From positions 1 through 63,457 of the IMG/VR virus record IMGVR_UViG_3300007960_000020: 63,457 nucleotides of DNA. The stretch is one strand, 5' to 3'. The translations under genes and the position numbers were made by a program. This document shows, one piece after another, positions 2,716-21,853 of this stretch; position 1 is the first letter of the stretch; the number at the start of each line of letters is the position of its first letter. The DNA is from a virus. The notes under the pieces were generated by a model. It searched no databases and had not been told where the DNA came from. It was given only the letters and a program-made list of their open reading frames with translations.

Positions 2716-3705
2716 ATGAATGAATATGTTAAAAAAAATGTAAAAGATTATTTATGTACTTATTATCAATGTTTCAACGATCCAGTTGATAAATATTTAA
2801 GAGTATTTGGTAATTTAACTAATTGTCATGAAGACTTTAGATGTACTAGAATAAAAGATGTAAGGCATATTTTCTTTAAGTTAAGTAAATCAGTATTAAC
2901 ATCAGAATTATTTAATATTTTATTTAATAAATTAGTTAAAGAAGGACATAACGTTTCAATCGATGATAACTTATTTATAATAATTTATGAATCTTCTGAT
3001 TCTAATCATTATAAATGGTTTTTATTTGAATTATCACGATCTATTATATTGAATTACTATATATTAGATAAAATAAAGAATTCAGATAAAAACTTGTTAT
3101 TAAAAGTAACAAAAAGATATAACGTATATAATACTTTACAGTTTTTGTTTTATTATTTAAGTTCTTTTGGAAATAACAATTTTATTCCTAAAAATATGTA
3201 TTATAGTACTATTAGTATTAAAATATTTTTGTTACATAATTATGTTTTTGGTCTATCTGATATGACAAATTTAAGTCAATATAGTTATCAATTTAAACCT
3301 GATATAATTACTTATAATACATATATACAGTTATTACAAACAATACGTAATAATGCTGTATTAAGTTTTAATCACAATAGTAAAAAAACTATTGTTAATA
3401 AAATTAACTTATTAATTAAAAAGAAATTAATAATAACTGATAACAATCCATTATTTTCTAATATTAAAGAAGTATTGTTAGATACTAGAAAAAAAAGTAC
3501 AAAAGAAAATATTACATTGGATAAAAACACATCAAAATTGTTATATGATGATGTTGAACAAGAATCTAAAATATTAAGAAAAAAATATTTGCCTATAAAA
3601 AAAATAACTTCTATAGAAGAAGCGGAATTATTTTATAGACAATATAACAAAGACTTTAAACAATTATTAAACAAGTTTATTAAACACTTAAAATATTTTA
3701 ACTGA
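2716..3705 (+). CDS. Hypothetical protein, 329 residues
   Basis: I do not recognise this protein. It is basic and rich in Asn, Tyr and Lys, with no signal peptide, no clear membrane span and no nucleotide-binding motif. The C-terminal quarter is very lysine-rich and probably helical. The stop TGA overlaps the ATG of the glutamine amidotransferase (ATGA arrangement), so the two are translationally coupled. It follows nrdJ after a short AT-only gap. It may serve the amidotransferase/ligase pair downstream, but that rests on position only. Confidence 0.7.
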   Translation: MNEYVKKNVKDYLCTYYQCFNDPVDKYLRVFGNLTNCHEDFRCTRIKDVRHIFFKLSKSVLTSELFNILFNKLVKEGHNVSIDDNLFIIIYESSDSNHYKWFLFELSRSIILNYYILDKIKNSDKNLLLKVTKRYNVYNTLQFLFYYLSSFGNNNFIPKNMYYSTISIKIFLLHNYVFGLSDMTNLSQYSYQFKPDIITYNTYIQLLQTIRNNAVLSFNHNSKKTIVNKINLLIKKKLIITDNNPLFSNIKEVLLDTRKKSTKENITLDKNTSKLLYDDVEQESKILRKKYLPIKKITSIEEAELFYRQYNKDFKQLLNKFIKHLKYFN

Positions 3706-4874
3706 TGAGAAAACCTATTATTGGAATTGTTGGTAAAAAAATTATTAATTCTAAAGGAGGTTTCAGTTATGGAATTCCTGGTCCTTATTGGCGTTGGTTA
3801 TCAATGTTCGGAAGAGTTAAAATGATTAACTTTGATGAATATGATGATACTATAGATGTTCTTGTATTACCTGGTGGTGCTGACGTTTATCCTTTAAGAT
3901 ATAAGGAAATACCTCAAATAGAAACAGGTTATCCTGATATTTATATGGAATATTTTGATATTGAAATATTACCTAAATATGTAAATAATCCGAGTATTCA
4001 CATTTTTGGTATTTGTAGAGGTTTACAAACTTTAGCTGTTCATTTCGGTTTAAAATTAGACCAGGATATATCTCAGGAATATTCAGATACATCAAGAGAT
4101 AAAAGAGTAGATACACTTGAATTTGTTTCATTAAATTTACTACAAGTAAATCTTCAAAAACATTTAAAGAAAAATAAGAAATATCAAGTTAATAGTTTAC
4201 ATCACCAAGCTGTTAATGATTCTGAATTTATAGTTGAAATTCAAGAAGGTTTAGCGACTAATAATGATATTGTTCTTGTAGCAAAAAATAAAGATTTTGG
4301 TAATGTTGAAATATTAGATTTTAGTAATTGTACTAAATTAAAATATTATTCAAAATCTATTGTTGGAGTTCAATATCATCCTGAAGAATTACTTGATGAT
4401 TTATATTCTAATTATACATTAAGAACTATGTGTAATATTGCTGTTACTAATACAAAAAATAAAAATACAAGTAGAGAACAAGAATTAGCAGAAGTATATC
4501 ATAAAGAAGTAGAAAGAATTAAAAGAGAAAAAATAGTAAAAGATGTATTTAACTCTATGTCTGAAGAGCCTGCAAGTATACCTATACCTGATAATTCTAA
4601 AGATTCACTTAATTTTACTTATTATAGTAATGAAAGAGGTGAATTTATTAAACATCCTACTTTAGAAACAGATATAGTTAAAAAAGAAAATAAAGAAGAA
4701 GAAGTAGATTTAGATTGGTTAGATGAAAAGATTGATGATACAGATGGTAATGAAGTAGAACCAACTCTTGAAAAAGAAATTAATGAAGTACCTTTAACTG
4801 AAGATTCTCTTAAAAAATCAATTGAAACTATTTTTGATAATACAAGAAAAAATAAAGTAAAAAAGATTAATTAA
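3705..4874 (+). CDS. Class I glutamine amidotransferase (peptidase C26-like) with acidic tail
   Basis: Residues 1-245 form a class I glutamine amidotransferase or gamma-glutamyl hydrolase domain: the VLVLPGGADVYP strand-turn, nucleophile C104 in FGICRGLQ, and H225/E227 in QYHPEE complete the triad. VNSLHHQAVN is the conserved histidine segment of the C26 (PuuD-like) branch. Members release ammonia from glutamine or cleave gamma-glutamyl amides. Residues 250-389 are an extra, highly charged, Glu/Lys-rich tail without recognised domain. The gene sits directly before a COOH.NH2 ligase, an association known from phage amidoligase systems. I infer it either feeds ammonia to that ligase or removes a glutamyl group from its product. 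Confidence 0.85.
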   Translation: MRKPIIGIVGKKIINSKGGFSYGIPGPYWRWLSMFGRVKMINFDEYDDTIDVLVLPGGADVYPLRYKEIPQIETGYPDIYMEYFDIEILPKYVNNPSIHIFGICRGLQTLAVHFGLKLDQDISQEYSDTSRDKRVDTLEFVSLNLLQVNLQKHLKKNKKYQVNSLHHQAVNDSEFIVEIQEGLATNNDIVLVAKNKDFGNVEILDFSNCTKLKYYSKSIVGVQYHPEELLDDLYSNYTLRTMCNIAVTNTKNKNTSREQELAEVYHKEVERIKREKIVKDVFNSMSEEPASIPIPDNSKDSLNFTYYSNERGEFIKHPTLETDIVKKENKEEEVDLDWLDEKIDDTDGNEVEPTLEKEINEVPLTEDSLKKSIETIFDNTRKNKVKKIN

Positions 4875-4892
4875 TTAAACTAACAAAACAAT

Positions 4893-5711
4893 ATGTTAAC
4901 AATTGACAAAATAGGTTCTGATATGGAAGTTTTTGTTAAAGACATTCATACAGAAGATATAACACCAATTATAGGTTATTTAGGAGGTACAAAATACGAC
5001 CCTAAAGAAATAGAACCTGGTTTTTTTGTACAAGAGGATAATGTTGCAGCAGAATATAATATTCCACCTTGTAACAATAAAGAAGAATTTGTGAATAATT
5101 TATTTAAAGGTTTAAATATTGTTGAAAAATTAGTAGCTGAAAGTGATTTAACAATAAGCTACAAAGAAACACATGAATTTAAACCTTATGAATTAACAGA
5201 CCCTAAAGCATTAGAAATAGGTTGTGAACCAGATTATAATGCATGGACAAATAAAATTAATAAAAAGGTTCAAGGTCACGAAACAAATATCAGAACTTGT
5301 GGAGGACATATTCATATTTCTTTTAAAGAAATTGACCAATTAAATACACCTAAAACAGAAAAGTTTATAATTAATTTTTGTAAAGCTTTAGATTTATTCT
5401 TAGCTGTTCCTTTATTAGCTTACGAAAGTGATAGTAATAGAAGACAATTATATGGTAAAGCTGGTTCTTACAGGAATAAAGTGTATGGATTTGAATATAG
5501 AACTTTAAGTAATGTATTTTTAAAAGATAGGAAATTAGCTGAATTTGTATATGATGGTATATTTAATGCTTATAATTATTGTCTAACTACAACTATTGAT
5601 GATGAAAGAATCAGAGATATTATAGACAATAATAAAAAGATAGAAGCTACTATTTTATGCGAAGTGTATAAATTACCTATTCCTAATGAAATAGTATATG
5701 ACAACAAGTAA
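4893..5711 (+). CDS. COOH.NH2 ligase (glutamine-synthetase fold, phiEco32-type)
   Basis: Forms an amide bond between a carboxylate and an amine with ATP, in the glutamine-synthetase fold group of amidoligases. Visible landmarks are the opening GSDMEVFV (acidic metal ligands), the second acidic strand with EDNVAAEYNIPP, the metal/ATP histidine pair H139-x-H141 in CGGHIHIS, and the later YRTLSN arginine segment. Length (272 residues) fits the family. It follows the class I amidotransferase by 18 bases and overlaps the next small gene by 14. The substrate is unknown: a free amino acid, a peptide, a polyamine or a protein side chain are all possible. Confidence 0.8.
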   Translation: MLTIDKIGSDMEVFVKDIHTEDITPIIGYLGGTKYDPKEIEPGFFVQEDNVAAEYNIPPCNNKEEFVNNLFKGLNIVEKLVAESDLTISYKETHEFKPYELTDPKALEIGCEPDYNAWTNKINKKVQGHETNIRTCGGHIHISFKEIDQLNTPKTEKFIINFCKALDLFLAVPLLAYESDSNRRQLYGKAGSYRNKVYGFEYRTLSNVFLKDRKLAEFVYDGIFNAYNYCLTTTIDDERIRDIIDNNKKIEATILCEVYKLPIPNEIVYDNK

Positions 5712-6045
5712 GTTCTCTGAAGGTTCTAAAGTAGAACTTTATAGAGATCATCAAAATAAGAAAGGTTATTTTGGGGAAGGAGTTTTAATAAGACTCCTTT
5801 CTCAAGGATTACCTTATATGATTGATGATAAAACAGACCAATATTTTGTTTCACATTTATGGAGTATTCAGGTATTGAATTCAAATCATTATACAAAAGG
5901 ACAAAGAATTCAATTAAGAATAAGAGAACCTTATTATAATAACAAAGTAGAAGATAAAGAAGACGATGAAGAAGAAACTAAAAATGATTCTTACAATGCT
6001 ATAAATGATAATTTTATAGAATTTGATGGTGTTGAATCATTTTAA
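5698..6045 (+). CDS. Hypothetical protein, 115 residues, acidic C-terminus
   Basis: A small soluble protein whose first 80 residues look like a compact beta fold (alternating hydrophobic strands with glycines: EGSKVELYRD, GEGVLIRLL, YMIDDKT). A strongly acidic stretch (KEDDEEE) comes before the end. I recognise no family. Its ATG lies inside the end of the COOH.NH2 ligase gene, so it is translationally coupled and could be an accessory to it; that is inference from position. Confidence 0.65.
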   Translation: MTTSKFSEGSKVELYRDHQNKKGYFGEGVLIRLLSQGLPYMIDDKTDQYFVSHLWSIQVLNSNHYTKGQRIQLRIREPYYNNKVEDKEDDEEETKNDSYNAINDNFIEFDGVESF

Positions 6046-6073
6046 ATAATGAATAAAAAGTAAATAAGTATAA

Positions 6074-7996
6074 GTGTTTAAATATTATAGTTATGATATA
6101 GAAATAATGAAAAACTTCTTTTCAATAACGTTTATAAACAATCAAAATACCAAAGAAAAACAAATATTTATAATATCTAAAAATAGAACAGAAGAATTTA
6201 ATAAATCTAATTTCTTAAGTTTAAAGAAATTTGTTATTAATAAAAATTATAAAATTAAATTATCAGGATATAATAATGCTTCTTTTGATGATATAATATT
6301 AAATTATATTCTAATGAAAGAAGAGTTTGATAATGATAGTTTTATTAATGATATATTCTACTATTCTGATTTAGTAATTAAAAATAGTAACTTAGGTATA
6401 CTATACTATGATGAATCAACTAGAAATAGTATATTATTTAATAGAAATAATAAATACTATATTTCTATAGATTTGATGAAAATTTATGATTCTTTGGATT
6501 CTAAGAGAATAAGTCTCAAACAAGTAGCTATTGCCTTAAAATGGCCTAAAATACAAGATATGCCTTATTCTTTTAAGAATTCTATTACTCTAGAACAAGA
6601 AGAAGAAATCATAGATTATAATGTTAATGACACTTTAATAACAAATAAACTCTTACATAATTCTCTTGATATTCTAAAATTAAGAGATTTAGTTTCACAT
6701 AAATACAATATTAATGTATTAAGTGATTCTAAAAGTAAGATTGCAAATAAAATATTATCTAGTTATTATTCCAAAGAAACAGGTTTAGATTATAAAGATT
6801 TTAAAGGAGAAAGAACTTTCAGATCTTTTTTTAGATTAAAAGAATGTATATTTCCTAATATTCAATTTAAATCTGAATTTTTTAATAAAGAATTAGAATC
6901 TTTAAAAGAAATAGTTATTGATGGAGAAAATACCAAATCTCCTTTTGATAAAACAATAACCTTTGATGGTGTAACTTATACTCTTGGTGTAGGTGGATTA
7001 CATTCTCAGGATAATGCAGGTTATTTTGAATCTAATGATAAAGAAGATATAATAGATGCTGATGTTAGTTCTTACTATCCTAGAATAATGATAGAATATG
7101 GAATTAAACCAGAACATTTATCTAATAAGTTTTTAGATATATTAAAAACAATAACAGAACAAAGATTAGAGGCTAAGAAAAATAAAGATTCTATTACAGC
7201 TGATTCATTAAAAATCGTTATTAATAGTACTTTTGGTAAATTAGGTTCTAAGTTATTATGGCTTTATGATCCTAAAGCTATGATAGAAGTAACTATTAAT
7301 GGTCAATTATTTTTATTAATGTTAATTGAAGAATTAGTTCTTAACGGTATAAAAGTAATATCTGCTAATACTGATGGTATATTGTCAATAGTACCTAAAG
7401 ATAAGAAAGAATTATATGATTCTATATGTAAAAATTGGCAAAAATATACTTCTATGGATTTAGAATTTATTAAATATAATAAATACATTAGAAGAGATGT
7501 TAATGCTTATATAAGTATAGAACAAAATACAAATAAAGTTAAAACTAAAGGAATATTTAATAACACAATAGATATAGAAAAAGGTTATGATAAACCTATA
7601 GTATCTATTGCTTTATATAATTATTATGTAAATAATATTCCTATAGAAGAAACTATATATAATCATAAAGATATTTATGATTTTTGTATTTCTCAAAAGA
7701 TAGGTAGCCAGTTTAATATGGTTACAAGAGATATTAAAAATGGTACTATACAAGAAAAAAAGATACAAAAAACTAATAGATTCTTTGTATCTAAAGGAGG
7801 TATATTAATACAAAAAAAGAAAAGTGATAATAAATATGATAGTATAGTTGCTAAAAAATCTCTTACTTTATTTAATGATTATTATGAAGTAGAAGATTTT
7901 AAAGACTATAGAATAGATTATAAATATTACATAAATTCTACAAGAGACATTGTTAATTTAATTACACCAAATATTGTTCAGAAAACTTTATTCTAA
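6074..7996 (+). CDS. Family B DNA polymerase with 3'-5' exonuclease domain
   Basis: The replicative polymerase. The N-terminal exonuclease domain shows ExoI YDIEI (D8, E10), ExoII SGYNNASFDD and ExoIII YNVNDT. The polymerase domain shows motif A DADVSSYYP (D328/D330 to P336), motif B as KIVINSTFGKLG, and motif C NTDG (D434). At 640 residues it is a compact phage-type PolB. Motif B has FG where YG is usual. The start is GTG at 6074; the first aromatic-rich strand runs straight into ExoI, so little is missing. crAss-like phages are known to carry either a PolA or a PolB. Confidence 0.92.
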   Translation: MFKYYSYDIEIMKNFFSITFINNQNTKEKQIFIISKNRTEEFNKSNFLSLKKFVINKNYKIKLSGYNNASFDDIILNYILMKEEFDNDSFINDIFYYSDLVIKNSNLGILYYDESTRNSILFNRNNKYYISIDLMKIYDSLDSKRISLKQVAIALKWPKIQDMPYSFKNSITLEQEEEIIDYNVNDTLITNKLLHNSLDILKLRDLVSHKYNINVLSDSKSKIANKILSSYYSKETGLDYKDFKGERTFRSFFRLKECIFPNIQFKSEFFNKELESLKEIVIDGENTKSPFDKTITFDGVTYTLGVGGLHSQDNAGYFESNDKEDIIDADVSSYYPRIMIEYGIKPEHLSNKFLDILKTITEQRLEAKKNKDSITADSLKIVINSTFGKLGSKLLWLYDPKAMIEVTINGQLFLLMLIEELVLNGIKVISANTDGILSIVPKDKKELYDSICKNWQKYTSMDLEFIKYNKYIRRDVNAYISIEQNTNKVKTKGIFNNTIDIEKGYDKPIVSIALYNYYVNNIPIEETIYNHKDIYDFCISQKIGSQFNMVTRDIKNGTIQEKKIQKTNRFFVSKGGILIQKKKSDNKYDSIVAKKSLTLFNDYYEVEDFKDYRIDYKYYINSTRDIVNLITPNIVQKTLF

Positions 7997-8163
7997 TGAG
8001 TTCAGAAAATATAAAAGATATTGATGCTTTATATGAGAAATTAAACTATTATAATAGGATGCATTGTGTAGTTAAATCCAGAGAGATAAAAGCTAAAATG
8101 ATGCAACTTAAATTGAATATAGAAAAAGAGATAATTAGGTTAGAAAAGAAATTTGGAAAATAA
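7996..8163 (+). CDS. Small coiled-coil protein, 55 residues
   Basis: A short frame whose ATG shares bases with the polymerase stop codon (TAATG) and which ends 11 bases inside the helicase gene. The product (MSSENIKDIDALYEK... ending EKKFGK) is highly charged, with heptad-like Leu/Ile spacing, so it should be a small helical or coiled-coil protein. The tight overlaps at both ends and the absence of any gap argue that it is real. Function unknown; a polymerase or helicase accessory is possible from position only. Confidence 0.65.
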   Translation: MSSENIKDIDALYEKLNYYNRMHCVVKSREIKAKMMQLKLNIEKEIIRLEKKFGK

Positions 8164-9310
8164 AAGAGAAATAAGACATAAAGAAGCGTTTGACAAATGG
8201 TATGAAAATAATAAAAAAGGATTAATACAAGCTGCAACTGGATTTGGTAAATCTAAAGTAGCTATTAATATCTTAAAAGAAGAAGTATCTAATAATAAAA
8301 AGTTGAAGGTATTGTTATTATCTCCAACTCATAGTATTTTAGAAAACTGGAAATCAGAATTTGAATATTGGAAATTTGATTATAATAAATATAAGATTGA
8401 TTTCCAATGTTATCAAAGTGCTTATAAATTTAAAGATAATCATTATAACTTAGTTATAGCAGATGAAATACATAATAGTTTAGATAATGAATATGAAGCT
8501 TTCTTTCATAATAACACTTATGATTCTATTCTATCTTTATCTGCTGAAGTACCTAAAGATAAATTATTTAATTTAACTAAGATATCTCCTGTTGTATATA
8601 ATTATTCTTTAAATCAAGGTATAGAAGATGGTTTCATAGCTCCTTTTGATGTGTATGTTATATTACATACATTAGATGATAAAAATAAATACATTCAATC
8701 AGGTAGTAAAAAAGTTACTTTTTTTACTACAGAATTAAAGCAATATAAATACTTAACCAGTCAAATATTTGCTGCCAGATTCGCTAAAAATGTATTTTAT
8801 GAAAGAAAATTATTAGGAGATAGAATGAGGTTAGTATATAACCTTGAATCCAAAGATAATTCTTGTAAGATATTAATAGAAGAATTAGCTAAAAGAGGAG
8901 AATTCACTCTAGTATTCACTGAATTGTCTAAATCATTAGACAGATTAACAGAGAACGGAATTCACTCTAATAAATCAGAAGAAGAAAATAATAAGATAAA
9001 ACAACAATTTATAGAGAATTCTATTAATACAATAGGTTCTTGTAAAATGTTAAAAGAAGGAGTAACATTATCTACTGTAAATAATATTATCTTACATAGT
9101 TTTAATTCTAAAACGCTAAACTTTATACAAAGAATAGGTAGAGGATTAAGATATGAAGAAAATAAAAAAGCAAAAATATTTATATATAAAACCTTAAATA
9201 CAGTAGAAGAAAAATGGTTTGAAAATATGATTAAATCAACTAACTTTAATATAAAATACTTATCTACTAGTTCAGTTGATTTTAAAAAAGACTTACAAAA
9301 TATATTATGA
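8153..9310 (+). CDS. Superfamily 2 DNA helicase
   Basis: ATP-dependent helicase or translocase. Motif I/Walker A is AATGFGKSK, motif II is the DEIH box in VIADEIHNS, and the C-terminal RecA-like domain has motif VI QRIGRGLRYEE. At 385 residues it has only the two-domain core, like the UvsW/RAD25-type phage helicases. The start is TTG at 8153, overlapping the preceding small gene; the N-terminal REIRHKEAFDKWYE before motif I resembles a Q-motif region, so the start is well supported. It lies between polymerase and DnaB-like helicase and probably serves origin opening, fork remodelling or recombination. Confidence 0.88.
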   Translation: MENKREIRHKEAFDKWYENNKKGLIQAATGFGKSKVAINILKEEVSNNKKLKVLLLSPTHSILENWKSEFEYWKFDYNKYKIDFQCYQSAYKFKDNHYNLVIADEIHNSLDNEYEAFFHNNTYDSILSLSAEVPKDKLFNLTKISPVVYNYSLNQGIEDGFIAPFDVYVILHTLDDKNKYIQSGSKKVTFFTTELKQYKYLTSQIFAARFAKNVFYERKLLGDRMRLVYNLESKDNSCKILIEELAKRGEFTLVFTELSKSLDRLTENGIHSNKSEEENNKIKQQFIENSINTIGSCKMLKEGVTLSTVNNIILHSFNSKTLNFIQRIGRGLRYEENKKAKIFIYKTLNTVEEKWFENMIKSTNFNIKYLSTSSVDFKKDLQNIL

Positions 9311-12679: not shown

Positions 12680-12706
12680 CTTGTAATTAAAAAAAATTAA
12701 TTATTA

Positions 12707-13309: not shown

Positions 13310-13331
13310 TATTGAACATTGAGTATTATAG

Positions 13332-13359: not shown

Positions 13360-13380
13360 TTATATTATTAATATTAAAAA

Positions 13381-14391
13381 ATGTTTAAAACAAAAAATGT
13401 AATAGTAAACGAAATAGGATATAGTAAAGAAAATATTTTAAAATTAATTCCTCAAGAAGATATATTTAAAAGATATTTTGGTGAATTCACAACAGGATGT
13501 GCATATAACTCTCCTTTAAGAAAAGGAGATAGTAATCCATCATTTAATATTTATTATTCTGATGGAATATTATTATATAAAGATTTTGCTCATTCTACTG
13601 GTGATTGTTTTAAATTTGTACAAGAATTATATGGATTATCTTATAAAGAAGCTATTAACAAAATATTAACTGATTTTGAAATAGATAAAACTAAAGTGGT
13701 AATTCCTAATAGATCTTTTACAAATAAAACTAAAGTAAAAGAATCAATATGTTTACAAATAGAAAAAAGAGAATTTTCTGAAAAAGATATTAATTACTGG
13801 AAACAATTTTATATATCTAGAAATACTTTAGATTATTATAAAGTTTATAGTGTTTCTAAAATATTCAGAAATAAATACTTATTTTTAAGTATAAATAAAG
13901 ATGTATTATGTTTTGCTTATTTAGTAAACAATAACTTTAAAATATATTTTCCTTTAAATGAGAAATATAAATGGTATAGTAATATAAGATTTTATAGTAT
14001 TAAAGATATACAAGGGTTTGAACAATTAGATTTATATGAGAATAAACCTAAAAAAGAATTATTAATTATTACAAAATCACTGAAAGATGTAATGGTTTTT
14101 TATGAATTAGGTATAGATTCTATTGCTATAAGTAGTGAATCTGTTACTTTAAGTAAAGAATACATTGATTATTTGTTAGAATATTATAACAATATTATAA
14201 TAAATACTGATAACGATGAACAAGGTAATAAGATAATTCAATCTTATAAAGATACTTATAAAGATTATATTAATATAACTTATTTTCAAATACCAACAAC
14301 AGCAGGAACTAAAGATCCTGCTGAATTTGTTAAAAAATACGATTTACAAACTTTAAAAAATTTAATTATCAATGGACGTAACAGAATATAA
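13381..14391 (+). CDS. DnaG-type DNA primase (TOPRIM)
   Basis: Makes RNA primers for lagging-strand synthesis. The N-terminal region resembles a DnaG zinc-binding/CHC2-like domain with a degraded zinc site (CAYNSPLRKGD, then KDFAHSTGDCFKFVQ). The C-terminal half is a TOPRIM domain: the first acidic-loop position is occupied by ITKSLKD, the DxD pair is D277/D279 in NTDNDEQG, and KDPAEF closes it. The glutamate usual in the first TOPRIM motif is replaced (TKS where one expects an E), as in some phage primases. The gene overlaps the cyclotransferase gene by 20 bases. DnaB-like helicase, SSB and polymerase genes lie just upstream. Confidence 0.85.
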   Translation: MFKTKNVIVNEIGYSKENILKLIPQEDIFKRYFGEFTTGCAYNSPLRKGDSNPSFNIYYSDGILLYKDFAHSTGDCFKFVQELYGLSYKEAINKILTDFEIDKTKVVIPNRSFTNKTKVKESICLQIEKREFSEKDINYWKQFYISRNTLDYYKVYSVSKIFRNKYLFLSINKDVLCFAYLVNNNFKIYFPLNEKYKWYSNIRFYSIKDIQGFEQLDLYENKPKKELLIITKSLKDVMVFYELGIDSIAISSESVTLSKEYIDYLLEYYNNIIINTDNDEQGNKIIQSYKDTYKDYINITYFQIPTTAGTKDPAEFVKKYDLQTLKNLIINGRNRI

Positions 14392-14764
14392 AACGATAGC
14401 TGTATATGGCACTTTGAAATCTGATAAAGGTAACAGAAGTGTTATGAGAGGAACTTTAATTGGTAAAGGATTAACCAAAGAAAAATATGCTATGTTTGCA
14501 AGTGGTATTCCTTATTTGGCTAAAAACATTCCTCAAACAAATATTACAGTAGAATTGTATAAAGTTCCTGTAGATGAAGTAAAATATTTAGATAGGTTTG
14601 AAGGCCATCCTACTTTCTATGAGAGAACACCTATCAAAGTATTGTGTAATGAAGAAGAAGTAGATGCTGATATTTATTTTACAAAAGATTTTGAAAAATT
14701 CAAATCTGTTGACGAAGTTCAGTATTATACTCAAATTCGTAATATAAGTGATGGAATATTCTAA
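14372..14764 (+). CDS. Gamma-glutamylcyclotransferase-like protein (AIG2/GGCT fold)
   Basis: Members of this fold split gamma-glutamyl amines and release 5-oxoproline. The 130-residue protein shows the defining YGTLK loop near the N-terminus (AVYGTLKSDKGN), a central segment AMFASGIPYL, and LDRFEGHPTFYERTPIKV with the catalytic glutamate region. In phage and antibiotic clusters (for example BtrG) such proteins remove a gamma-glutamyl protecting group from an amidoligase product. Two GS-fold amidoligases, an ATP-grasp ligase and two glutamine amidotransferases are encoded within 11 kb on either side, so I infer the same kind of job here. It overlaps primase upstream and ung downstream. Confidence 0.85.
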   Translation: MDVTEYKTIAVYGTLKSDKGNRSVMRGTLIGKGLTKEKYAMFASGIPYLAKNIPQTNITVELYKVPVDEVKYLDRFEGHPTFYERTPIKVLCNEEEVDADIYFTKDFEKFKSVDEVQYYTQIRNISDGIF

Positions 14765-14963
14765 TATATATAAAAAATTAATACAAACTAATTGGTATAA
14801 TATTCTGGAAGATTTCTTACTTTCTAAAGATATGGATAAAATAGTATCTCATATTAAAGAAAGAAGTAAACAAACAGATATATATCCTAAATCAGAAGAT
14901 TTATTTAAAGCATTTAATTATTTTGATTTCTTTGATTTAAAAGTAGTTATATTAGGACAGGAT
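14751..14963 (+). CDS. ung: Uracil-DNA glycosylase, exon 1 (N-terminal 71 residues)
   Basis: The 5' exon of a split family 1 uracil-DNA glycosylase, which excises uracil from DNA. It ends exactly after D71 of the water-activating motif GQDPYH (VVILGQD), where an intron begins with a stop codon in frame. I chose the ATG at 14751; a GTG three bases earlier is the alternative. The start lies inside the end of the cyclotransferase gene. Joined to 15995-16495 it gives 237 residues, the normal length for the family. Without splicing only an inactive fragment would be made. Confidence 0.93.
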
Positions 14964-15018
14964 TAAATATTATTTTTTATTATTTTTATAATAAATTATT
15001 TATTTGTATATTTGTAGT

Positions 15019-15768
15019 ATGAAAAATACTACAGTAAACCAAATACTAGATTTCCATTCACAAGGAAAAACAAACATTGAAATATTAGAATTGATTAATG
15101 ATGATACTATAAGTATAAAAAATATATGCTCTCTTATTAATAGAAAAGGATTAAATAGTAATAAACATAAAGAGATAACAATAACCAATGAATTAAATAA
15201 TTTAATAATTGGAAGTATGTTAGGAGATGGTCATATAACTAAAGAGAAAAACTATAATAGTAAATTATCATTAGCACATTCTATTAAACAAGAAAGTTAT
15301 TTAAAATATAAATTTAATATTTTAAAAAAATATGAATTAGTTAATAAATTTTGTAAATATAAAATTCATAATAATAGATATAAAAATGGATTTATAGAAG
15401 AAGTGAGATTTAAATCAAAAGCTCATCCTATATTTTCTAATTATAGAGATATATTTTATAAAAATAATGTAAAATATATTCCTAATAAAATAGAAGAGTT
15501 AGATGAATTTGGATTATCTATATGGTATTTCGATGATGGAAATAAAACAAAATATGGATATCAATTAAATACTCAAAATTTTACTATAACAGATATTAAA
15601 AAATTATCATTATTATTAAAAACAAAATTTAATATTAATAATACTATTCATAAAAATAAAACAATTTATATTTTATCAGATTCTAAAGATATTTTAACAA
15701 ATATTTTAAATAAATATTCAATTCCTTGTGTAGATTATAAAATACATAGAAAGACGAGTCCTGTATAA
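15019..15768 (+). CDS. LAGLIDADG homing endonuclease (intron-encoded)
   Basis: A 249-residue endonuclease with two LAGLIDADG-type motifs, LIIGSMLGDGH (about 62-72) and LSIWYFDDG (about 166-174), with the acidic residue of each at the DG pair. It is thus a single chain with two motifs (LAGLIDADG_2 style). Residues 1-50 look like a helix-turn-helix. It cuts an intron-free allele of the host gene so that repair copies the intron in. I chose ATG 15019; a TTG at 15004 is in frame but adds only MYICS. The final codons AGT CCT GTA also form the ribozyme's internal guide. Codon use is as AT-rich as that of the phage. Confidence 0.9.
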   Translation: MKNTTVNQILDFHSQGKTNIEILELINDDTISIKNICSLINRKGLNSNKHKEITITNELNNLIIGSMLGDGHITKEKNYNSKLSLAHSIKQESYLKYKFNILKKYELVNKFCKYKIHNNRYKNGFIEEVRFKSKAHPIFSNYRDIFYKNNVKYIPNKIEELDEFGLSIWYFDDGNKTKYGYQLNTQNFTITDIKKLSLLLKTKFNINNTIHKNKTIYILSDSKDILTNILNKYSIPCVDYKIHRKTSPV

Positions 15769-15994
15769 ATTGGGTGAATTCGGTGAAAGTCTAGAAGTAG
15801 ATAACCCCGAGCCAAGCTAAGTTTAGGTTAAAAGAACTTAGAAGGTGTAACGCATAGTAAATGAGCCTAACAATAATTTTACCACGAGCGCCCAACATTT
15901 TTAATAAAAAATGATGATGTATGCTGAACTGTAGATATAACAATTATGAAACTACAGAATTTAAAGATAAAAAACTTTAAAGATAACAACATTG
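15758..15994 (+). ncRNA. Group IA intron ribozyme core
   Basis: The catalytic RNA, read by pairing. Internal guide 15758-15764; P3 TTGGGTG (15770-15776) with CGCCCAA (15889-15895); P4 TTCGG with CCGAG; P6 CTAAGTT (15817-15823) with AACTTAG (15835-15841); P7 GCATA (15852-15856) with TATGC (15920-15924); P8 CATTTTT with AAAAATG; P9 CTGTAG (15929-15934) with CTACAG (15952-15957); and P9.1 TTTAAAG with CTTTAAA. The string CCCCGAGCCAAGC between P4 and P6 is a classic group IA signature. About 30 bases between P7 and P3' leave room for P7.1/P7.2. Omega-G is at 15994. Confidence 0.9.
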
Positions 15995-16495
15995 CCATAT
16001 CATACTCCTAATGTAGCAGATGGTTTATGTTTTAGTTCTAATCTAAAACATATAGTACCACCTAGTCTTAGAAATATTTTAACTGAAATGTATAATGATA
16101 TTTATAATAAAAAACAATTAGATATTAAAGCTAATCCTAATTTGGAATATTTAGCTAAACAAAACGTTTTATTATTAAATACAGCATTAACAGTTGAAAG
16201 AGGTTCGCCTGGTTCTCATACAGAATTATGGAAACCATTTACTAATTATGTTTTAAATAAAATTAGTGATAGAAAAACAGATAATATAGTAATCTTTTTA
16301 TTATGGGGAAATAAAGCGAAAGAATATAAACCTATAATAGAAAAAAATAACTTTAATATCATATATGAAGCAGCTCATCCATCTCCATTTTCAGCATATA
16401 ATGGTTTCTTTGGATGTAGACATTTTAGCTCTGTAAATGAAACATTAAGGTTTTATAATGAAAATAGTATTAATTGGATTGATGAAATTAATTAA
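15995..16495 (+). CDS. ung: Uracil-DNA glycosylase, exon 2 (residues 72-237)
   Basis: The 3' exon starts with PYHTPNVADGLCFS, completing GQDPYH, and carries the rest of a family 1 glycosylase: LLNTALTVE (uracil-binding strand), FLLWGNKAKEY, and the DNA-intercalation motif with catalytic H199 in HPSPFSAYNGFFGCRHFSSVN. All residues expected for activity are present. It needs splicing, since no proper start codon exists at the junction except a TTG inside the intron end. The 3' end overlaps the next gene. In the phage it may guard DNA against dUTP incorporation or attack host or competing uracil-containing DNA. Confidence 0.93.
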   Translation, partial: PYHTPNVADGLCFSSNLKHIVPPSLRNILTEMYNDIYNKKQLDIKANPNLEYLAKQNVLLLNTALTVERGSPGSHTELWKPFTNYVLNKISDRKTDNIVIFLLWGNKAKEYKPIIEKNNFNIIYEAAHPSPFSAYNGFFGCRHFSSVNETLRFYNENSINWIDEIN

Positions 16496-17264
16496 TAAAT
16501 ATAATCCTAAATTAGGAATAGAAGCTTTTAAGTTTGGAATAAAATATGCAGCATGTTTAAAAGGTGAAAATGATGAATTTTATAATATAACAGCTTTTGC
16601 TACATGTAAAGATTTATTTCCAGACATTTACTGGTATGAATACAAAGGAAAGAAAGAGAAAAAAGAAAAATATATATATGGTTACGACTTATTATATACA
16701 GAAGAATATGTAAAAAATGATATTAATCATATTTGTTTACAATTAAATAAAGAACAGTTTGAATTATATAATAAGAATTTAGAATTTTATACTGATTTTT
16801 GTAATAAATATTTGAAATATTTTAATGTAAAAGGAGAAATTAAAACCTTTGTAATTGAGAATGAAACTAAAGATGAATTTAATTATGTAATGTGTGAATT
16901 TCCAAAACACTTATGTGATAAACATTTTTTAGCTTCTATGTTAATATTAGTATTGAGAAATGGAATATATCTAAGTAAAAAGAGAATATCTTTTAAACTC
17001 TATATTTTAGATTTAATTTCTATAGGTACAGAAATAGAGAACCAAAACAAAAAATCTACTATAATAACTATAATAAGAGATTATTATTATTTCAAAAATA
17101 TTATTAAAGTTTTATCTTTATTAAGAAAACATAAGAAGCATATAAAATCTTATTATAATTTTAATTATATAGGAGATTCCCATGGATTTGGTGTTGTTAA
17201 TATTTCAAATAATTTAGCGGATGAATCAAAATTTAAATACGTAGTAAATGAAAGTTTCATATAG
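16458..17264 (+). CDS. Unknown protein at the head of the amide-ligase block, 268 residues
   Basis: I do not recognise this protein. It appears soluble, with central hydrophobic helices (FLASMLILVLRNG; FKLYILDLISIGTEI) and a C-terminal GDSHGFGVVN motif preceded by a lysine-rich helix. The GDSHGFG turn could be a nucleotide- or metal-binding loop, but no family is evident. The start at 16458 overlaps ung by 38 bases; a second in-frame ATG at 16482 reduces the overlap to 14 and may be the true start. It overlaps the ATP-grasp gene by 17 bases, so it is co-translated with it and is a candidate partner or substrate of the amide-bond pathway. Confidence 0.65.
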   Translation: MKIVLIGLMKLINKYNPKLGIEAFKFGIKYAACLKGENDEFYNITAFATCKDLFPDIYWYEYKGKKEKKEKYIYGYDLLYTEEYVKNDINHICLQLNKEQFELYNKNLEFYTDFCNKYLKYFNVKGEIKTFVIENETKDEFNYVMCEFPKHLCDKHFLASMLILVLRNGIYLSKKRISFKLYILDLISIGTEIENQNKKSTIITIIRDYYYFKNIIKVLSLLRKHKKHIKSYYNFNYIGDSHGFGVVNISNNLADESKFKYVVNESFI

Positions 17265-18042
17265 AATAAAAATAAGAAGTAGACATCCTAGTCATAGTGT
17301 CTTAAGAAAAAATTTACCTAAATTAGGTTTTACTAGTATTGTTAGATTAGGCAGTACTACAGAATTACTAGATAAATCCAAAGTAGAATTAAATTCAATA
17401 GAATCAATAAGAACTAGTAGTAATAAACTACTAATGAAAGAAGCTTTTACAAAACATAATGTTAAAACAGCAGATTGGTTTAAATTAATTGATATAAATA
17501 AAGAAGAACTTCCTTTCGAATATCCTATTGTAATAAAAAACATTTATGGAAGTAGAAACACAGGTAATCACTTTATTTCTAATAGAGAGGAATTAGATTC
17601 TTTTTTAAGTAAAAGTATTAATTTAAACAATTATATTGTTGAGAAATATTATAATTATAATAAAGAATATAGATTACATGTAAATAAACATACTTGTTTT
17701 TATACTTGTAGAAAAATGTTAAAGACTGATGCTAAAAATAGATGGTTCAGAAATGATTCTAATTCTATTTGGGTTTTAGAAGAAAATGAATTATTTGATA
17801 GACCAGCTAATTGGAATGAAATAGTTAATGAATGTATAAAAGCTTTAAATGCTGTTGGATTAGATTTCGGAGCAATTGATTTAAGAGTACAATCAAATAA
17901 AGATAAGAAAGAAAATATAAGACAAAATCCTGATTTTATAGTTATTGAAACAAATAGTGCTCCTAGTTTTGGAAATATAACACAACAAAAATATTTAGAA
18001 GAAATACCTAAAATGTTAATTAACAAATACAACAATAGATGA
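17248..18042 (+). CDS. ATP-grasp carboxylate-amine ligase (RimK-like)
   Basis: ATP-grasp enzymes activate a carboxylate as acyl phosphate and join it to an amine. Visible here are the first ATP-binding strand with lysine (YPIVIKNIYGSRNTG, a flexible glycine loop), the hinge YIVEKYYNYNKEYRLHV that binds adenine and carries the EYR arginine, and the metal-binding end (GAIDLRVQ followed by FIVIETNSAPSFGN, acidic residues plus Asn). At 264 residues it has a short N-terminal pre-ATP-grasp domain. It overlaps the unknown gene upstream and the class II glutamine amidotransferase downstream. It is probably one ligase of the modification pathway; adding amino acids to a peptide or protein end is the usual role of RimK-like members. 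Confidence 0.85.
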   Translation: MKVSYRIKIRSRHPSHSVLRKNLPKLGFTSIVRLGSTTELLDKSKVELNSIESIRTSSNKLLMKEAFTKHNVKTADWFKLIDINKEELPFEYPIVIKNIYGSRNTGNHFISNREELDSFLSKSINLNNYIVEKYYNYNKEYRLHVNKHTCFYTCRKMLKTDAKNRWFRNDSNSIWVLEENELFDRPANWNEIVNECIKALNAVGLDFGAIDLRVQSNKDKKENIRQNPDFIVIETNSAPSFGNITQQKYLEEIPKMLINKYNNR

Positions 18043-20195
18043 TTTTAAGTAATATTTTATTAACGCTTTTATTTTGGTATAGTTTGATAACTTTTATAAG
18101 TTTGATGTTTACTAAACCAAAATATAATACCTTTAATTGTGGGTTATTTGGATACATAGGTCCTAAAGCTGATGTAATGGCTTTAAAAATACTGGGCTTA
18201 TATAATAATGATAGAGGAGGAGACTCATGTGGTTTTGCTTTAAAAACCGATAATTTAGATGATTTTATTATTGATAAAGGTTTTGATAGTAAAAAAGACT
18301 GGGGAGATTTTATAGTTTCATCTGAATTATGTAATTATGAAGATGAAACAGTTAAAGTTTTCTTAGGTCATACTAGAAAAGCTTCAAAGTTTTATTCTAA
18401 AGAGAAAGAAACACATCCTTTCTTAATACAAAATCAAGATACAAATATAGATATAATAGGAGCACATAATGGCACTATCCATAATATGACTGATTTATTA
18501 ACTAAATATGATATGTCAGATGTTAAAGACATAATGGATTTAGATAGTTATCAATTATTTTCTATATTAAATACTAAGAATTATTCTGTATTAAAAAACT
18601 ACGAAGGAACAGCTACTTTAACATGGACTTTTCCTAAAGAAAATGATTCTTTGTATATATATAAAGGAGCTTGTTTAGTTGAACAATGGAATAATACAAC
18701 CAAAAAACATGAAGAAGTATTAGTAGAAGAAAGACCATTATATTATGTTAGAATAAATGATGGTTACTATTATTCTTCTTTATACATGTCTTTAAAAGCT
18801 TGTTTTCCTAATAATAAAGTAGAATGTTTTCCTACAAACAAAGTTATTAAACTTTATTTAAACAAGGATAATAAAGTAATAGTAAGTTATCCTAAAACTT
18901 CTGATGTAGATAGAAGTGATAACAAACAAAATGCTAATACTGGTAGAAAAAGAGTTGTTATTACTAATGTAAATAACAACATAAACACTTATTCTAGCGC
19001 TGCAAAGCAGACAGCCCTTCCATGGGAGAAAGAAACGGAAAAAACAGAAAGCTCGAAGAAGACGAAGATGATTCAAGATTTCAGTTCTTTAAAAAATATT
19101 TTTGGAACTGGAATTAGTATTTTGTCAGAGCCTAAGTTAGATGTTTTAGACACAACTATTCATTTAGACCGAGTTGTGTATTGGAGGGGTAGGTACTATA
19201 AAAATGGTCATTTGTGTCATGGAACATTTACATTAGATAAGTTCGGATATAAAAAAGATTCACCTTTATTTAGTCAATATCAAGGACCTAGAATTTATTA
19301 TTTTATTTTAGGTATGTTGGTAACTGAATCTGATTTTGGAAAATTATATAATGTCAACACAGATAGTGCTATTAAAAACAAAGTATTTGTAACTGATTCT
19401 TGTTATATAGATGTAGCTTTTATGAAAGATTGTTTAGTATCAGGTCATTATTATTCAGATACTACTTATGATTTTATAGAAACCCATAGTAATTATGGAT
19501 ATGAACTATTTAGTTCAGATGGATTTAATGAGAAAGAAATTGAATACAAACCTTTATTTTCAAATAGAGTATATAAGATTTCATCAGATGATAAAGTATT
19601 AGGTTTAATGGAAGATATGTTTGATTCTTATATTGTTGTAAAAAAGGATTCTAGTCCAGGGTGGCTAAAGAAAACTGTACAATATTCAGTATCTTCAGCT
19701 AGTACAGAATTTATTTACTTAAATGGTTCTAAAAATCAAAATATGATTATTACAAATGACGATAATGATAATACCAAATCTAACTCTAATTCTGATTTCA
19801 ATCCTACTGAATTAACAGAAGATGTAAAAGATGTAGAAGATGCTCCATTCGATAAAGATATGGAAATGATTTATGACGATAAAAATTATATGGAAGGAAT
19901 AGCGTTAGAATTAAAAAGAGAAATTTGTGATAAATATATTTCATTTGTAGAAACAGAAATAGACAATTTTATAAAAGAAATAGAAGAAGCTAATGAAGAA
20001 ATTGTCTATGCTACAGTTAATAAAGATGAAGATTTGGAACAAGTAGATTCTACTTTAAATCGTTTTATTAAAGATTTAAAGCAAGCTAAACTTTACTTAA
20101 AAGAAAGAATGAATTCTGCTATGAAAAATAGCGAGTTTATTGATTTGAATATAGAAGATAAGAATAGCAAACAGGAAATTCTTATTAATGATTAA
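18039..20195 (+). CDS. Class II (Ntn) glutamine amidotransferase, large, with N-terminal hydrophobic segment
   Basis: Residues 34 to about 250 form a class II glutamine amidotransferase domain: the nucleophile C34 in NCGLFGYIGPK, then RGGDSCGFALK (glutamine-binding), FLGHTRKAS, and AHNGTIHN with the oxyanion Asn/Gly. Such domains free ammonia from glutamine, as in GFAT and asparagine synthetase. The cysteine normally must become the N-terminus, yet here a hydrophobic stretch (residues 4-22) precedes it. Starting at the inner ATG (18105) would leave an 11-residue propeptide like that of PurF. The C-terminal 450 residues are not recognised; about 620-700 is a charged coiled coil. No synthase domain is fused, so the ammonia acceptor must be another protein, plausibly the adjacent ATP-grasp ligase or amidoligase. 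Confidence 0.82.
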   Translation: MILSNILLTLLFWYSLITFISLMFTKPKYNTFNCGLFGYIGPKADVMALKILGLYNNDRGGDSCGFALKTDNLDDFIIDKGFDSKKDWGDFIVSSELCNYEDETVKVFLGHTRKASKFYSKEKETHPFLIQNQDTNIDIIGAHNGTIHNMTDLLTKYDMSDVKDIMDLDSYQLFSILNTKNYSVLKNYEGTATLTWTFPKENDSLYIYKGACLVEQWNNTTKKHEEVLVEERPLYYVRINDGYYYSSLYMSLKACFPNNKVECFPTNKVIKLYLNKDNKVIVSYPKTSDVDRSDNKQNANTGRKRVVITNVNNNINTYSSAAKQTALPWEKETEKTESSKKTKMIQDFSSLKNIFGTGISILSEPKLDVLDTTIHLDRVVYWRGRYYKNGHLCHGTFTLDKFGYKKDSPLFSQYQGPRIYYFILGMLVTESDFGKLYNVNTDSAIKNKVFVTDSCYIDVAFMKDCLVSGHYYSDTTYDFIETHSNYGYELFSSDGFNEKEIEYKPLFSNRVYKISSDDKVLGLMEDMFDSYIVVKKDSSPGWLKKTVQYSVSSASTEFIYLNGSKNQNMIITNDDNDNTKSNSNSDFNPTELTEDVKDVEDAPFDKDMEMIYDDKNYMEGIALELKREICDKYISFVETEIDNFIKEIEEANEEIVYATVNKDEDLEQVDSTLNRFIKDLKQAKLYLKERMNSAMKNSEFIDLNIEDKNSKQEILIND

Positions 20196-20206
20196 TTTTT
20201 TAAAAT

Positions 20207-21853
20207 ATGTCTATTATAATAAATGAAGACGTTGATATTGATATGAGTAATTTAAAAGTTGTTAGTGTTAGTGGTAAAGAAATTCCAAGAACAAATGCTA
20301 TTAGAATTAAAGGAAGATGGTATGAAAGAAATGTAGATTGTTTCATGATTCCTAATATTGGAAACAAAATAGGAAAAAATGGAAAAGACTATATGTGGCA
20401 TATTAAGAATAATGGTATAATTGATTTGGATTTTGAAAAAAATGAATATAGAAGAATTAGTGATATGCTTAAAGAAGGCAAAGTAAAAGGTTATATAAAT
20501 AAAAAACTTGACGTTGCTTACTTTACTATTAATCCTAATTATTCTGTATTGATTAAAGAATCTTTGGGAGACCCTGGTTTATATTGTTTAAATAAAGAAT
20601 TAATAGAAAACAATCCTAAATTTGTAGAAGATTTAGTAACAGGAATATATTATGTAAAAGATAATATTAATTCTTCTTTACTAAAAAATATTACAAAGAA
20701 AAGAATAGACCATAACCAATATCCTGAAGGTTTAACCTATAATGCTGACCCTAATAATATACTATATCTAAAAATTATAGAAGAGCATACTAAATACAAA
20801 AATAGTATGAAACCTTCTAAAAACGTAAAAATAATTGCTAATAACTTATTAGAAAATTATTCTTTTGGTGTTGAGTTTGAAACTATAAATGGAACTATAC
20901 CTAAGAATCTTTGTTCTATGTATGGTATAGTACCACTTAGAGATGGTTCTTTAAAAGGTCCTTACGGAGAAGGTATTGAATTTACAACAGTACCTTTAAG
21001 TGGAGCTGTTGGATTAGAAATCCTAAAAAATCAAACTTACGAATTATCTAAAAGATGTGAAATATCTCATAATTGTAGTATGCATTTACATATATCTGGT
21101 ATACCAAAAACAAGATATAATGCGATGGCTGTTTATAAGTTATTTTATCTATTAGAGGAAGAGTTCTTTGGTTTAGTTCAACCTTATAAAGAGAATCCTG
21201 GAAAACTATGTTCTGATTGGAAAAAGTTTTCTTCAGACATAAGAGACAATTATTGTAGCAAATTACCTAAATTTAGTTTTTTAAATAAAACTGTATCTGA
21301 ATCTGAAGCTATAAATTATTTTAAAGATTTATTTATATTTTTAGCTGACCATTCAGAGATAACAAAAGAAAGTAGTATTTATAATTTTGAAGCTTATGTA
21401 CATCCTAAAAATAGAAAATGGTTGATTAATAGTAGATATTATTGGGTTAACTTTGTTCCATTTGTATTTAATAGAAGTGAAACTATAGAGATGCGTTTAC
21501 ATACGCCAACTCTTAATTTTACTAAAACAAGTTGTTGGTTATTTATAAATTTAGCTGTATTAAAATTTGCAGAAAATAATGCTAATCTTATTTTAAATAA
21601 AGATTTTAATAAGATTACATTAGAAGATGTAGTTAAAGGATATCTAACTGACTTCGGAAATACTAAATTAAGTAGAACAGAAGAAGAAAACTTAATAATA
21701 AAAGATTTTGTTGATTACTTATTGGCTTATATTAATAATAGAAAAGAGTTATACTTTAGCAATAAAGAAAAGAAATTATATTACGATAAAAAAGAATTTG
21801 TTGACGATAATACATTTTCGTTGAAACATAAAAGAATGAATAGTCTTTATTAA
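20207..21853 (+). CDS. Amidoligase (Amidoligase_2 family, GS fold) with N-terminal extension
   Basis: A 548-residue protein whose region from about 215 to 460 is an Amidoligase_2 domain: SFGVEFET with metal ligands E223/E225, GSLKGPYGEGIEFTT (second acidic strand), the H293-x-H295 pair in CSMHLHIS, and the closing arginine in TIEMRLHTP. The family makes amide bonds in peptide tags or cell-wall-like products. Residues 1-210 are an unrecognised domain that includes GRWYERN, similar to GRYYKNG in the preceding amidotransferase. The gene starts 12 bases after that gene, so the two are probably made together. It is the second GS-fold ligase of this genome. Confidence 0.82.
   Translation: MSIIINEDVDIDMSNLKVVSVSGKEIPRTNAIRIKGRWYERNVDCFMIPNIGNKIGKNGKDYMWHIKNNGIIDLDFEKNEYRRISDMLKEGKVKGYINKKLDVAYFTINPNYSVLIKESLGDPGLYCLNKELIENNPKFVEDLVTGIYYVKDNINSSLLKNITKKRIDHNQYPEGLTYNADPNNILYLKIIEEHTKYKNSMKPSKNVKIIANNLLENYSFGVEFETINGTIPKNLCSMYGIVPLRDGSLKGPYGEGIEFTTVPLSGAVGLEILKNQTYELSKRCEISHNCSMHLHISGIPKTRYNAMAVYKLFYLLEEEFFGLVQPYKENPGKLCSDWKKFSSDIRDNYCSKLPKFSFLNKTVSESEAINYFKDLFIFLADHSEITKESSIYNFEAYVHPKNRKWLINSRYYWVNFVPFVFNRSETIEMRLHTPTLNFTKTSCWLFINLAVLKFAENNANLILNKDFNKITLEDVVKGYLTDFGNTKLSRTEEENLIIKDFVDYLLAYINNRKELYFSNKEKKLYYDKKEFVDDNTFSLKHKRMNSLY

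Follow-up and report, generated by a model that had tools for sequence, protein, structure and literature searches.

A dispersed crAss-like version of the phage amide-bond cassette, with a putative removable membrane leader on its class II glutamine amidotransferase

Introduction

Podoviruses of the phiEco32-, LUZ24- and RIO-1-like groups have a set of amide-bond-forming enzymes that was published under the name 'peptidoglycan modification cassette', for which the accessible parts of the source papers give comparative evidence only (PMC5498523, PMC11945000). As far as those parts go, both papers, the former on Pseudoalteromonas phages and the latter from 2025, relate the proposal that the enzymes make three unusual linkages in peptidoglycan peptides, which would block superinfection or prepare lysis, and credit it to Iyer et al. 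(2009) and Hardies et al. (2013). Here we analyse six such genes in a crAss-like phage represented by the 63,457-base virus record IMGVR_UViG_3300007960_000020, the whole of which is called the window. They encode, in this order, a C26-type enzyme with the class I amidotransferase fold (C26), a COOH-NH2 ligase, a gamma-glutamyl(amine) cyclotransferase (GGCT, also GGACT), a RimK-like ATP-grasp ligase, a class II glutamine amidotransferase (GAT-II) and an Amidoligase_2 protein. We read the six genes as the crAss-like version of the podovirus cassette, acting on an envelope peptide and with a removable leader on GAT-II, a reading in which our confidence and our doubt are about equal. The original prediction, made from the letters of this DNA, had presented the six as a possibly undescribed system. 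This does not stand, as the set is already in print for podoviruses; what is new is a crAss-like, unusually dispersed version of a known cassette with an optional membrane leader on GAT-II.

Comparison with described systems

The podovirus cassette, seen in PaP3 (locus L005 of our set), in phiEco32 (L035) and in UFV-P2 as far as its published table goes, resembles the window in having a COOH-NH2 ligase, Amidoligase_2, ATP-grasp, GAT-II and GGCT on one strand next to a primase. The order in PaP3 and phiEco32 is COOH-NH2 ligase, p47-like gene, Amidoligase_2, GAT-II, ATP-grasp, GGCT, primase. The window differs in that GAT-II precedes Amidoligase_2, which is the crAss-like order, that there is no p47-like gene, that C26 and GGCT are both present, that the genes are spread over 18 kb and that GAT-II carries a membrane leader. 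Held against the published cassette, the window thus has the five families on one strand and in a position amid replication genes, though over 18.1 kb.

Cellulophaga phage phi14:2 and crAss-like phage cr108_1 have the same crAss-like proteins as the window, and both have compact sets. The order in phi14:2 is GGCT, ATP-grasp, COOH-NH2 ligase, GAT-II, Amidoligase_2, UDG, without C26; in cr108_1 it is ATP-grasp, two unknowns, C26, COOH-NH2 ligase, GAT-II, Amidoligase_2, UDG, without GGCT. The GAT-II of phi14:2 has a leader like that of the window, whereas that of cr108_1 starts with Met-Cys. Judged by these family matches, the cassette also occurs in crAss-like phages, where it has five or six genes. 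In phi14:2 the individual genes are already named in the public annotation, and our literature search found no paper joining the terms amidoligase and crAss-like phage. Leptolyngbya phage Lbo-JY46 has all six families, as the window does, but they are contiguous, and it differs further in its cyanobacterial host, its two strong C26 copies and the lack of a leader.

Puu-type gamma-glutamyl-amine metabolism uses the ligase PuuA, which has the fold of glutamine synthetase (GS), and the C26 hydrolase PuuD. The cassette is similar in placing a GS-like ligase beside a C26 hydrolase; it differs in that no oxidase or dehydrogenase was seen in it, and the score with the PuuD model is far under the cut-off. 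The Pup ligase and depupylase (PafA, Dop) and the YbdK ligases share the GS-type fold with Amidoligase_2 (Z of about 11 over about 245 residues for Dop and YbdK), but sequence identity is about 10%. The butirosin enzymes BtrG and BtrJ form a gamma-glutamyl protecting-group pathway, for which our literature search returned nothing.

Co-inheritance of the six genes

Loci were sampled from viral contigs with three baits, Amidoligase_2 (29 loci), COOH-NH2 ligase (80 kept of 233 relatives) and ATP-grasp (80 kept of at least 335 relatives), and were scored with profiles of the six families. De-duplication was done at 90% DNA identity over 1.5 kb, and L001 and L036-L043 were excluded before counting. 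No fetched stretch exceeded about 21.6 kb around its bait; wide cassettes are therefore under-counted, and any comparison of spans favours compact sets.

At least four of the six families were present in 124 of the 142 de-duplicated loci, and mixed strands were found in none of the 124, four of which came from species-genome contigs and the remainder from viral contigs, named phages and the window. COOH-NH2 ligase and GAT-II each occurred in 122 of these loci, Amidoligase_2 in 121, ATP-grasp in 116, C26 in 87 and GGCT in 79. Counting only loci with at least 6.5 kb on both sides of the bait, the COOH-NH2 ligase (30 loci) was accompanied by GAT-II in 29, by Amidoligase_2 in 29 and by ATP-grasp in 26, and the ATP-grasp ligase (42 loci) by GAT-II in 42, by Amidoligase_2 in 39 and by COOH-NH2 ligase in 36. 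These comparisons narrow the cassette to a probable four-enzyme core of COOH-NH2 ligase, GAT-II, Amidoligase_2 and ATP-grasp. One core miss per bait was the phage of the window itself, because its cassette does not fit into one locus; the other misses included the clade of L082, L104 and L113, without ATP-grasp and GGCT, L152, without COOH-NH2 ligase and C26, and distant relatives.

Loss of single members, which the original prediction had named as an argument against one pathway, does occur: C26 is absent from the whole phi14:2 record and GGCT from that of cr108_1. The four-gene core is broken less often, all four genes lying within the fetched stretch in 13 of 16 loci with the Amidoligase_2 bait, 26 of 30 with COOH-NH2 ligase and 36 of 42 with ATP-grasp. 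The median span of loci with at least five families was 6,519 bases (n = 105); the 18,143 bases of the window are the largest value there and also among 13 whole cassette records.

Twenty whole records were searched for COOH-NH2 ligase, GGACT, C26 and Amidoligase_2. Seven had been chosen by a structural gene and are the sole unbiased set (six Crassvirales and Flavobacterium phage FpV4, which is not filed under Crassvirales); three were the named cassette phages and ten had been chosen as cassette carriers. The seven had none of the four families. All 13 cassette genomes, chosen as such, had Amidoligase_2, and each of the remaining three families was present in 12 of them. The gaps were C26 in phi14:2, GGCT in cr108_1 and COOH-NH2 ligase in G006, where the ligase escaped the Pfam model but matched a purpose-built profile (L163). 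Co-inheritance and the whole-genome searches together support the view of the original prediction that the six genes would form one functional module, acting as a multi-step pathway.

GAT-II and ATP-grasp were sought by tblastn over a phage collection of 50,697 records. At E <= 1e-5, only phi14:2, cr108_1 and Lbo-JY46 had a window-like Amidoligase_2 there, and only they had a window-like GAT-II; a window-like ATP-grasp was found in those three and four more. When 84,980 species genomes were scanned by pattern for the COOH-NH2 ligase, five loci were found, all of them with two or more further cassette families, whereas viral contigs had yielded the 233 relatives; as far as the scan tells, this ligase is almost confined to viruses. 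These results bear on an alternative in which the six would be separate auxiliary nitrogen-metabolism genes that aid ammonia use or amino-acid making by the host. In the accessible part of the report on Phage-ZRK32 such genes are read in this way, and phage together with nitrate or ammonium raised the growth of Pseudomonas stutzeri 273 (PMC10945688). The near confinement of the COOH-NH2 ligase to viruses and the tight co-inheritance, which is not expected of independent metabolic genes, make this very improbable for the window. Phages that carry the amide-bond cassette are found on proteobacteria, Bacteroidota and cyanobacteria.

Among the six genes, adjacency of GAT-II and Amidoligase_2 was seen in 111 of 121 loci, with a random expectation of 0.39; for C26 and COOH-NH2 ligase it was seen in 69 of 87 and for ATP-grasp and GGCT in 62 of 79, and no other pair exceeded 50%; the idea of three pairs was formed on a first locus set and then counted on this larger, overlapping one. 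By profile, a seventh, p47-like family was present in 50 of the 69 loci that are not of crAss order, PaP3 and phiEco32 included, and in 0 of the 73 crAss-order loci, and the window gave no profile match to a p47/gp85-like gene between COOH-NH2 ligase and Amidoligase_2.

As side observations, the members of the seventh family have about 190-212 aa and lie between COOH-NH2 ligase and Amidoligase_2 (L005:8648-9226, L035:21704-22321 and 42 further loci; that of PaP3 is phrog_4877, function-unknown). A well-supported GAT-II clade (L023, L082, L104, L113, L203) has C26, COOH-NH2 ligase, GAT-II and Amidoligase_2, with no ATP-grasp or GGCT in the fetched stretch; L082, L104 and L113 lie on contigs of 160-176 kb.

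Active sites and folds of the six enzymes

All six open reading frames (ORFs) lie where they had been predicted, on the plus strand and with catalytic-type residues intact (Table 1), and these residues are conserved across homologues. The C26 triad Cys104/His225/Glu227 was invariant in four aligned sequences, and among 95 hits the Cys was kept in 91, the His in 92 and the Glu in 94. In the COOH-NH2 ligase, E12, E54, H139 and R194 were kept in 125 of 125 hits and E201 in 124. The YG motif of GGCT was found in 84 of 85 hits and its catalytic Glu in 81, the ExN motif of the ATP-grasp ligase had its Glu in 129 and its Asn in 126 of 130 hits, and C34, R59, H143-N144-G145 and D169 of GAT-II were invariant across 43 sequences with and without the leader.

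Table 1. Features of the window discussed in the text, with their positions and the matches behind each assignment.
Feature	Position	Strand	Evidence and remarks
C26-type class I amidotransferase-fold enzyme (gamma-glutamyl hydrolase or glutaminase) with C-terminal extension	3705..4874	+	Pfam PF07722, 82.3 bits (cut-off 20.5)
COOH-NH2 ligase (PF14395), carboxylate-amine ligase, glutamine-synthetase-like class	4893..5711	+	Pfam, 46.4 bits (cut-off 25); phrog_3815, 1e-69
DNA primase	13381..14391	+	phrog_12622; adjoins the cassette, context only, not a pathway enzyme
Gamma-glutamyl(amine) cyclotransferase GGCT/GGACT	14372..14764	+	Pfam PF06094, 62.1 bits (cut-off 22.8); overlaps the end of the DNA primase gene
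RimK-like ATP-grasp ligase	17248..18042	+	phrog_2599, 3.7e-29; Pfam RimK (PF08443), 19.9 bits (under the cut-off of 21)
Class II glutamine amidotransferase GAT-II	18039..20195	+	Pfam GATase_6 (PF13522), 30.6 bits (cut-off 27); nucleophile Cys34
33-codon hydrophobic leader of GAT-II	18039..18137	+	Ends directly before Cys34; ATG overlaps the ATP-grasp stop (ATGA)
Amidoligase_2 protein	20207..21853	+	phrog_2443, 2.1e-16; Pfam PF12224, 19.4 bits (under the cut-off of 22)
N-acetylmuramoyl-L-alanine amidase (PF01510), likely endolysin	62190..62681		

The family searches that the original prediction had suggested placed four of the six above their Pfam cut-offs; the ATP-grasp ligase and Amidoligase_2 fell just under theirs, yet had strong PHROG matches. 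The ORF at 17248 is an ATP-grasp ligase by its match to phrog_2599 and its ExN motif, despite that Pfam score. With NCBIfam rimK_fam it reached 35 bits, far under the 143-bit cut-off, and its best NCBIfam matches, all sub-cut-off, were the RimK family and a methanopterin glutamate ligase.

The predicted structure of Amidoligase_2 (pLDDT 88.9) has an extra N-terminal part followed, at residues ~195-535, by a ligase fold of the glutamine-synthetase type. The best VIA-align match was YbdK (Z 11.7, 246 residues, root-mean-square deviation 4.5), with Dop, GmaS and glutamine synthetases close behind, and the top Foldseek match was a glutamine synthetase at E 5.8e-4 only. Together with the ATP-grasp ligase this agrees with the forecast of two GS-fold ligases and one ATP-grasp, the fold of the protein at 20207 being of GS type by model and that at 4893 being of the GS-like class by family assignment alone. 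The fold search barely covered the first 195 residues of the Amidoligase_2 model; a fused p47-like protein was considered for this part and rejected, as it gave no profile match. The GAT-II model matched the glutaminase domains of GlmS and PurF, and its long C-terminal part was modelled with low confidence.

Candidate removers of gamma-glutamyl groups

The original prediction had assigned the pathway two ammonia sources, C26 and GAT-II, and one deprotecting enzyme, GGCT. One ammonia source with two gamma-glutamyl removers is the better reading of the family matches and gene content, and the earlier assignment is not favoured. The C26 protein fits PF07722 far better than the Pfam model of class I GATase, with which it scored 33 bits, above that cut-off but far below the 82 bits of PF07722. 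Moreover, either C26 or GGCT may be missing but rarely both: of 73 core-complete loci with 3.5 kb margins, 36 had both, 16 C26 only, 19 GGCT only and 2 neither, so that one or the other was kept in 71. This pattern, with which the family scores agree, speaks for overlapping duties of the two, in which C26 would remove gamma-glutamyl groups. In Fisher tests for mutual replacement, p was 2e-4 for loci of podovirus order and 1.5e-5 for those not of crAss order (the value for all loci is given below).

C26 could instead be the ammonia source of the COOH-NH2 ligase, its usual neighbour, and the cassette would then hold two amidotransferase-ligase pairs. The frequent adjacency of the two genes, the class I fold with its full triad, the class I GATase score and distant matches of the GMP-synthase type speak for this. 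The ligase was nevertheless found without C26 in 21 of the 73 core-complete loci, 19 of them with GGCT, and the weak solved relatives of C26 include PuuD, a gamma-glutamyl-GABA hydrolase. Along with the better fit to PF07722, this makes a role of C26 as ammonia source rather doubtful.

Membrane leader on the class II amidotransferase

GAT-II starts with Met-Cys in most loci, whereas in the window the encoded nucleophile is residue 34. Class II amidotransferases need their catalytic Cys free at the N-terminus, and removable propeptides occur in some PurF and GltS proteins. Leaders of 24-33 residues, with one helix-like core and ending right before the nucleophile Cys, were found in 30 de-duplicated loci, the window included; the count excludes L087, which has a longer hydrophobic leader, and loci truncated at their ends. 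The mean net charge of these leaders was +1.9 between the core and the Cys and about 0 before the core, with the charge after the core exceeding that before it in 29 of 30, and Leu stood at position -2 in 23 of 30. No nearer in-frame ATG, GTG or TTG was present in 11 of the 30. The window does have nearer in-frame starts, and there the full leader rests on the stop-start overlap with the ATP-grasp gene and on its relatives. Among 87 Met-Cys loci taken as a control, four were open for 27 codons upstream and none was both open and hydrophobic there.

The AlphaFold model of the window's GAT-II has a helix at residues 2-25, with pLDDT above 90 for residues 1-20 and 63 over the next ten. As GAT-II proteins with and without the leader share one catalytic core, the simplest reading is that the leader is a removable propeptide. 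From the charge pattern, insertion would probably be N-out/C-in, and the enzyme would stay on the cytoplasmic side of the inner membrane until the leader is cut. Alternatively, the leader could be a permanent membrane anchor, with the need for an N-terminal nucleophile relaxed or the anchored form inactive; the confidently predicted helix and the charge pattern would suit such an anchor. The class II catalytic residues are invariant whether or not a leader is present, however, and of the two loci L088 and L093 one cleanly has it and the other cleanly lacks it before the same Cys, so that we regard a permanent anchor as unlikely. Our search, with one wording, found no literature report of a class II glutamine amidotransferase with a transmembrane propeptide.

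Three other accounts of the leader were set aside. Descent of the leaders as one clade was rejected, as the GAT-II tree needs at least 19 changes, at least four of them forced by well-supported branches. A leader hidden in another frame of leaderless relatives was also rejected: with all frames considered over 150 bases, a hydrophobic stretch was found in 4 of 41 crAss-order and 3 of 46 other leaderless loci (17 leaderless loci were inspected and all were counted). One of the leaderless loci used as near relatives, L011, was open upstream but not hydrophobic. The Leu-x-Cys ending recalls a lipoprotein signal peptide, which we infer not to be present from the basic residues between the helix and the Cys. 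A His in the middle of the core, noted by eye in 12 of 30 leaders (for example L014, L016, L017, L088 and L132), hints at common descent or leader exchange.

Proposed function

In the envelope reading, the three ATP-dependent ligases (COOH-NH2 ligase, ATP-grasp and Amidoligase_2) would form amide bonds on a carboxylate-bearing substrate. GAT-II would supply ammonia from glutamine to its near-constant neighbour Amidoligase_2, and the COOH-NH2 and ATP-grasp ligases may attach gamma-linked glutamate or a similar amino acid. GGCT (by release as 5-oxoproline) and C26 (by hydrolysis) would remove gamma-glutamyl groups in proofreading or deprotection. The substrate, most likely but least certainly of these steps, would be a cell-envelope peptide, for example a peptidoglycan precursor on which the enzymes would act at the inner membrane, and the GAT-II of the window would be made with a removable N-out/C-in leader that has to be cut before Cys34 for activity. 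The leader mildly favours an envelope-linked substrate, and the amidase gene of the same phage (Table 1) is also counted in its favour.

Several observations weigh against this. The accessible literature yielded no product, substrate or experiment on cassette enzymes. None of the six proteins exceeds the cut-off of any peptidoglycan-enzyme model in Pfam or NCBIfam; the nearest solved chains and models of the ATP-grasp ligase include cyanophycin synthetase, RimK and D-Ala-D-Ala ligase, all of them weak matches. The cassette lies beside replication genes and not beside lysis or wall genes. Most loci lack the leader, among them near relatives of loci that have it, so that membrane targeting cannot be essential, and its cleavage is a step that we infer. 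When adjacency is counted per distinct gene order, only the GAT-II/Amidoligase_2 pairing is strong (28 of 33, against 15 of 24 for C26/COOH-NH2 ligase and 13 of 24 for ATP-grasp/GGCT). Over all 73 core-complete loci the Fisher test for C26 and GGCT gave p 0.07, and a tree-aware test found four independent pairs only, which leaves the pattern without power once phylogeny is considered; on these grounds a claim of significant mutual replacement was dropped.

A protein or small molecule as target is a serious rival. The cassette and its chemistry would be the same, but they would act outside the envelope, on a small molecule of phage or host or on a protein such as a replication or transcription protein. 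Enzymes of the RimK-like ATP-grasp type are known to glutamylate proteins and cofactors, and the best NCBIfam matches of the window's ligase, given above, are also counted here. A BLAST cluster that holds the primase lies in the cassette or within 3.5 kb of it in 79 of the 124 loci. The R2K ATP-grasps of other phages have been proposed, in the accessible parts of the reports, to modify host proteins (PMC4431377, PMC7824862). On the other side, no evident acceptor protein was seen. Between the cassette genes a single additional family is frequent, one of 212 aa that lies between COOH-NH2 ligase and Amidoligase_2 in 42 loci, none of crAss order. The GAT-II leader, moreover, points to the membrane in 30 loci. 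We give a target outside the envelope an appreciable, if minority, chance.

An extended form of the envelope reading, which we put forward as a speculation with rather little weight, is that one lineage among the crAss-like phages makes GAT-II as a membrane-targeted precursor. Its helical leader, with basic residues and mostly Leu at -2, would be removed exactly in front of the N-terminal nucleophile, and this cut would switch on amidation of lipid-linked wall precursors at the inner membrane. The leader would be an exchangeable part, gained and lost many times, and the gamma-glutamyl group a temporary protection with two interchangeable removers. If the wall-precursor reading is true, phages, crAss-like ones among them, would have a pathway by which peptides of the host envelope are rewritten in the course of infection. 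A leader that ends at a defined nucleophile is a biochemical handle pointing to the membrane, and it can be tested on one protein.

Genomic context of the cassette

The assignment of the window to crAss-like phages (Crassvirales) rests on crAss-type structural and cargo proteins. A crAss_CARG1 domain was found with 31.2 bits (cut-off 27 bits), a virion protein matched phrog_9863 with 121 bits and had tblastn relatives in Crassvirales and Flavobacterium phages, and the late ORFs are very long. The same phage is present in the larger contig IMGVR_UViG_3300007538_000020 (94,981 bases), with 99.98% identity over the 21,644 bases compared. Genes for PolB, helicases and UDG are interleaved with those of the cassette, and the primase gene adjoins GGCT. 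The division of the six genes over three loci that had been claimed is correct here, although a mere 2.5 kb, with an interrupted UDG gene and a 268-aa ORF, separates the second locus from the third.

In the UDG gene (14748-16495), an insert of about 1 kb with a LAGLIDADG_2 endonuclease ORF splits the active-site motif itself (GQD | PYH). As a stop codon comes directly after GQD, an unrecognised intron is likelier than an intein. The insert gave no Rfam intron match at the gathering threshold. The 268-aa ORF (16458-17264), between UDG and ATP-grasp, had no Pfam or PHROG match and fell outside the 25 largest BLAST clusters of cassette neighbourhoods. Two function-unknown families (BLAST clusters 4 and 5) flank crAss-order cassettes in 24 and 20 loci, with examples at 23226-23795 of the window and at L002:14102-14797.

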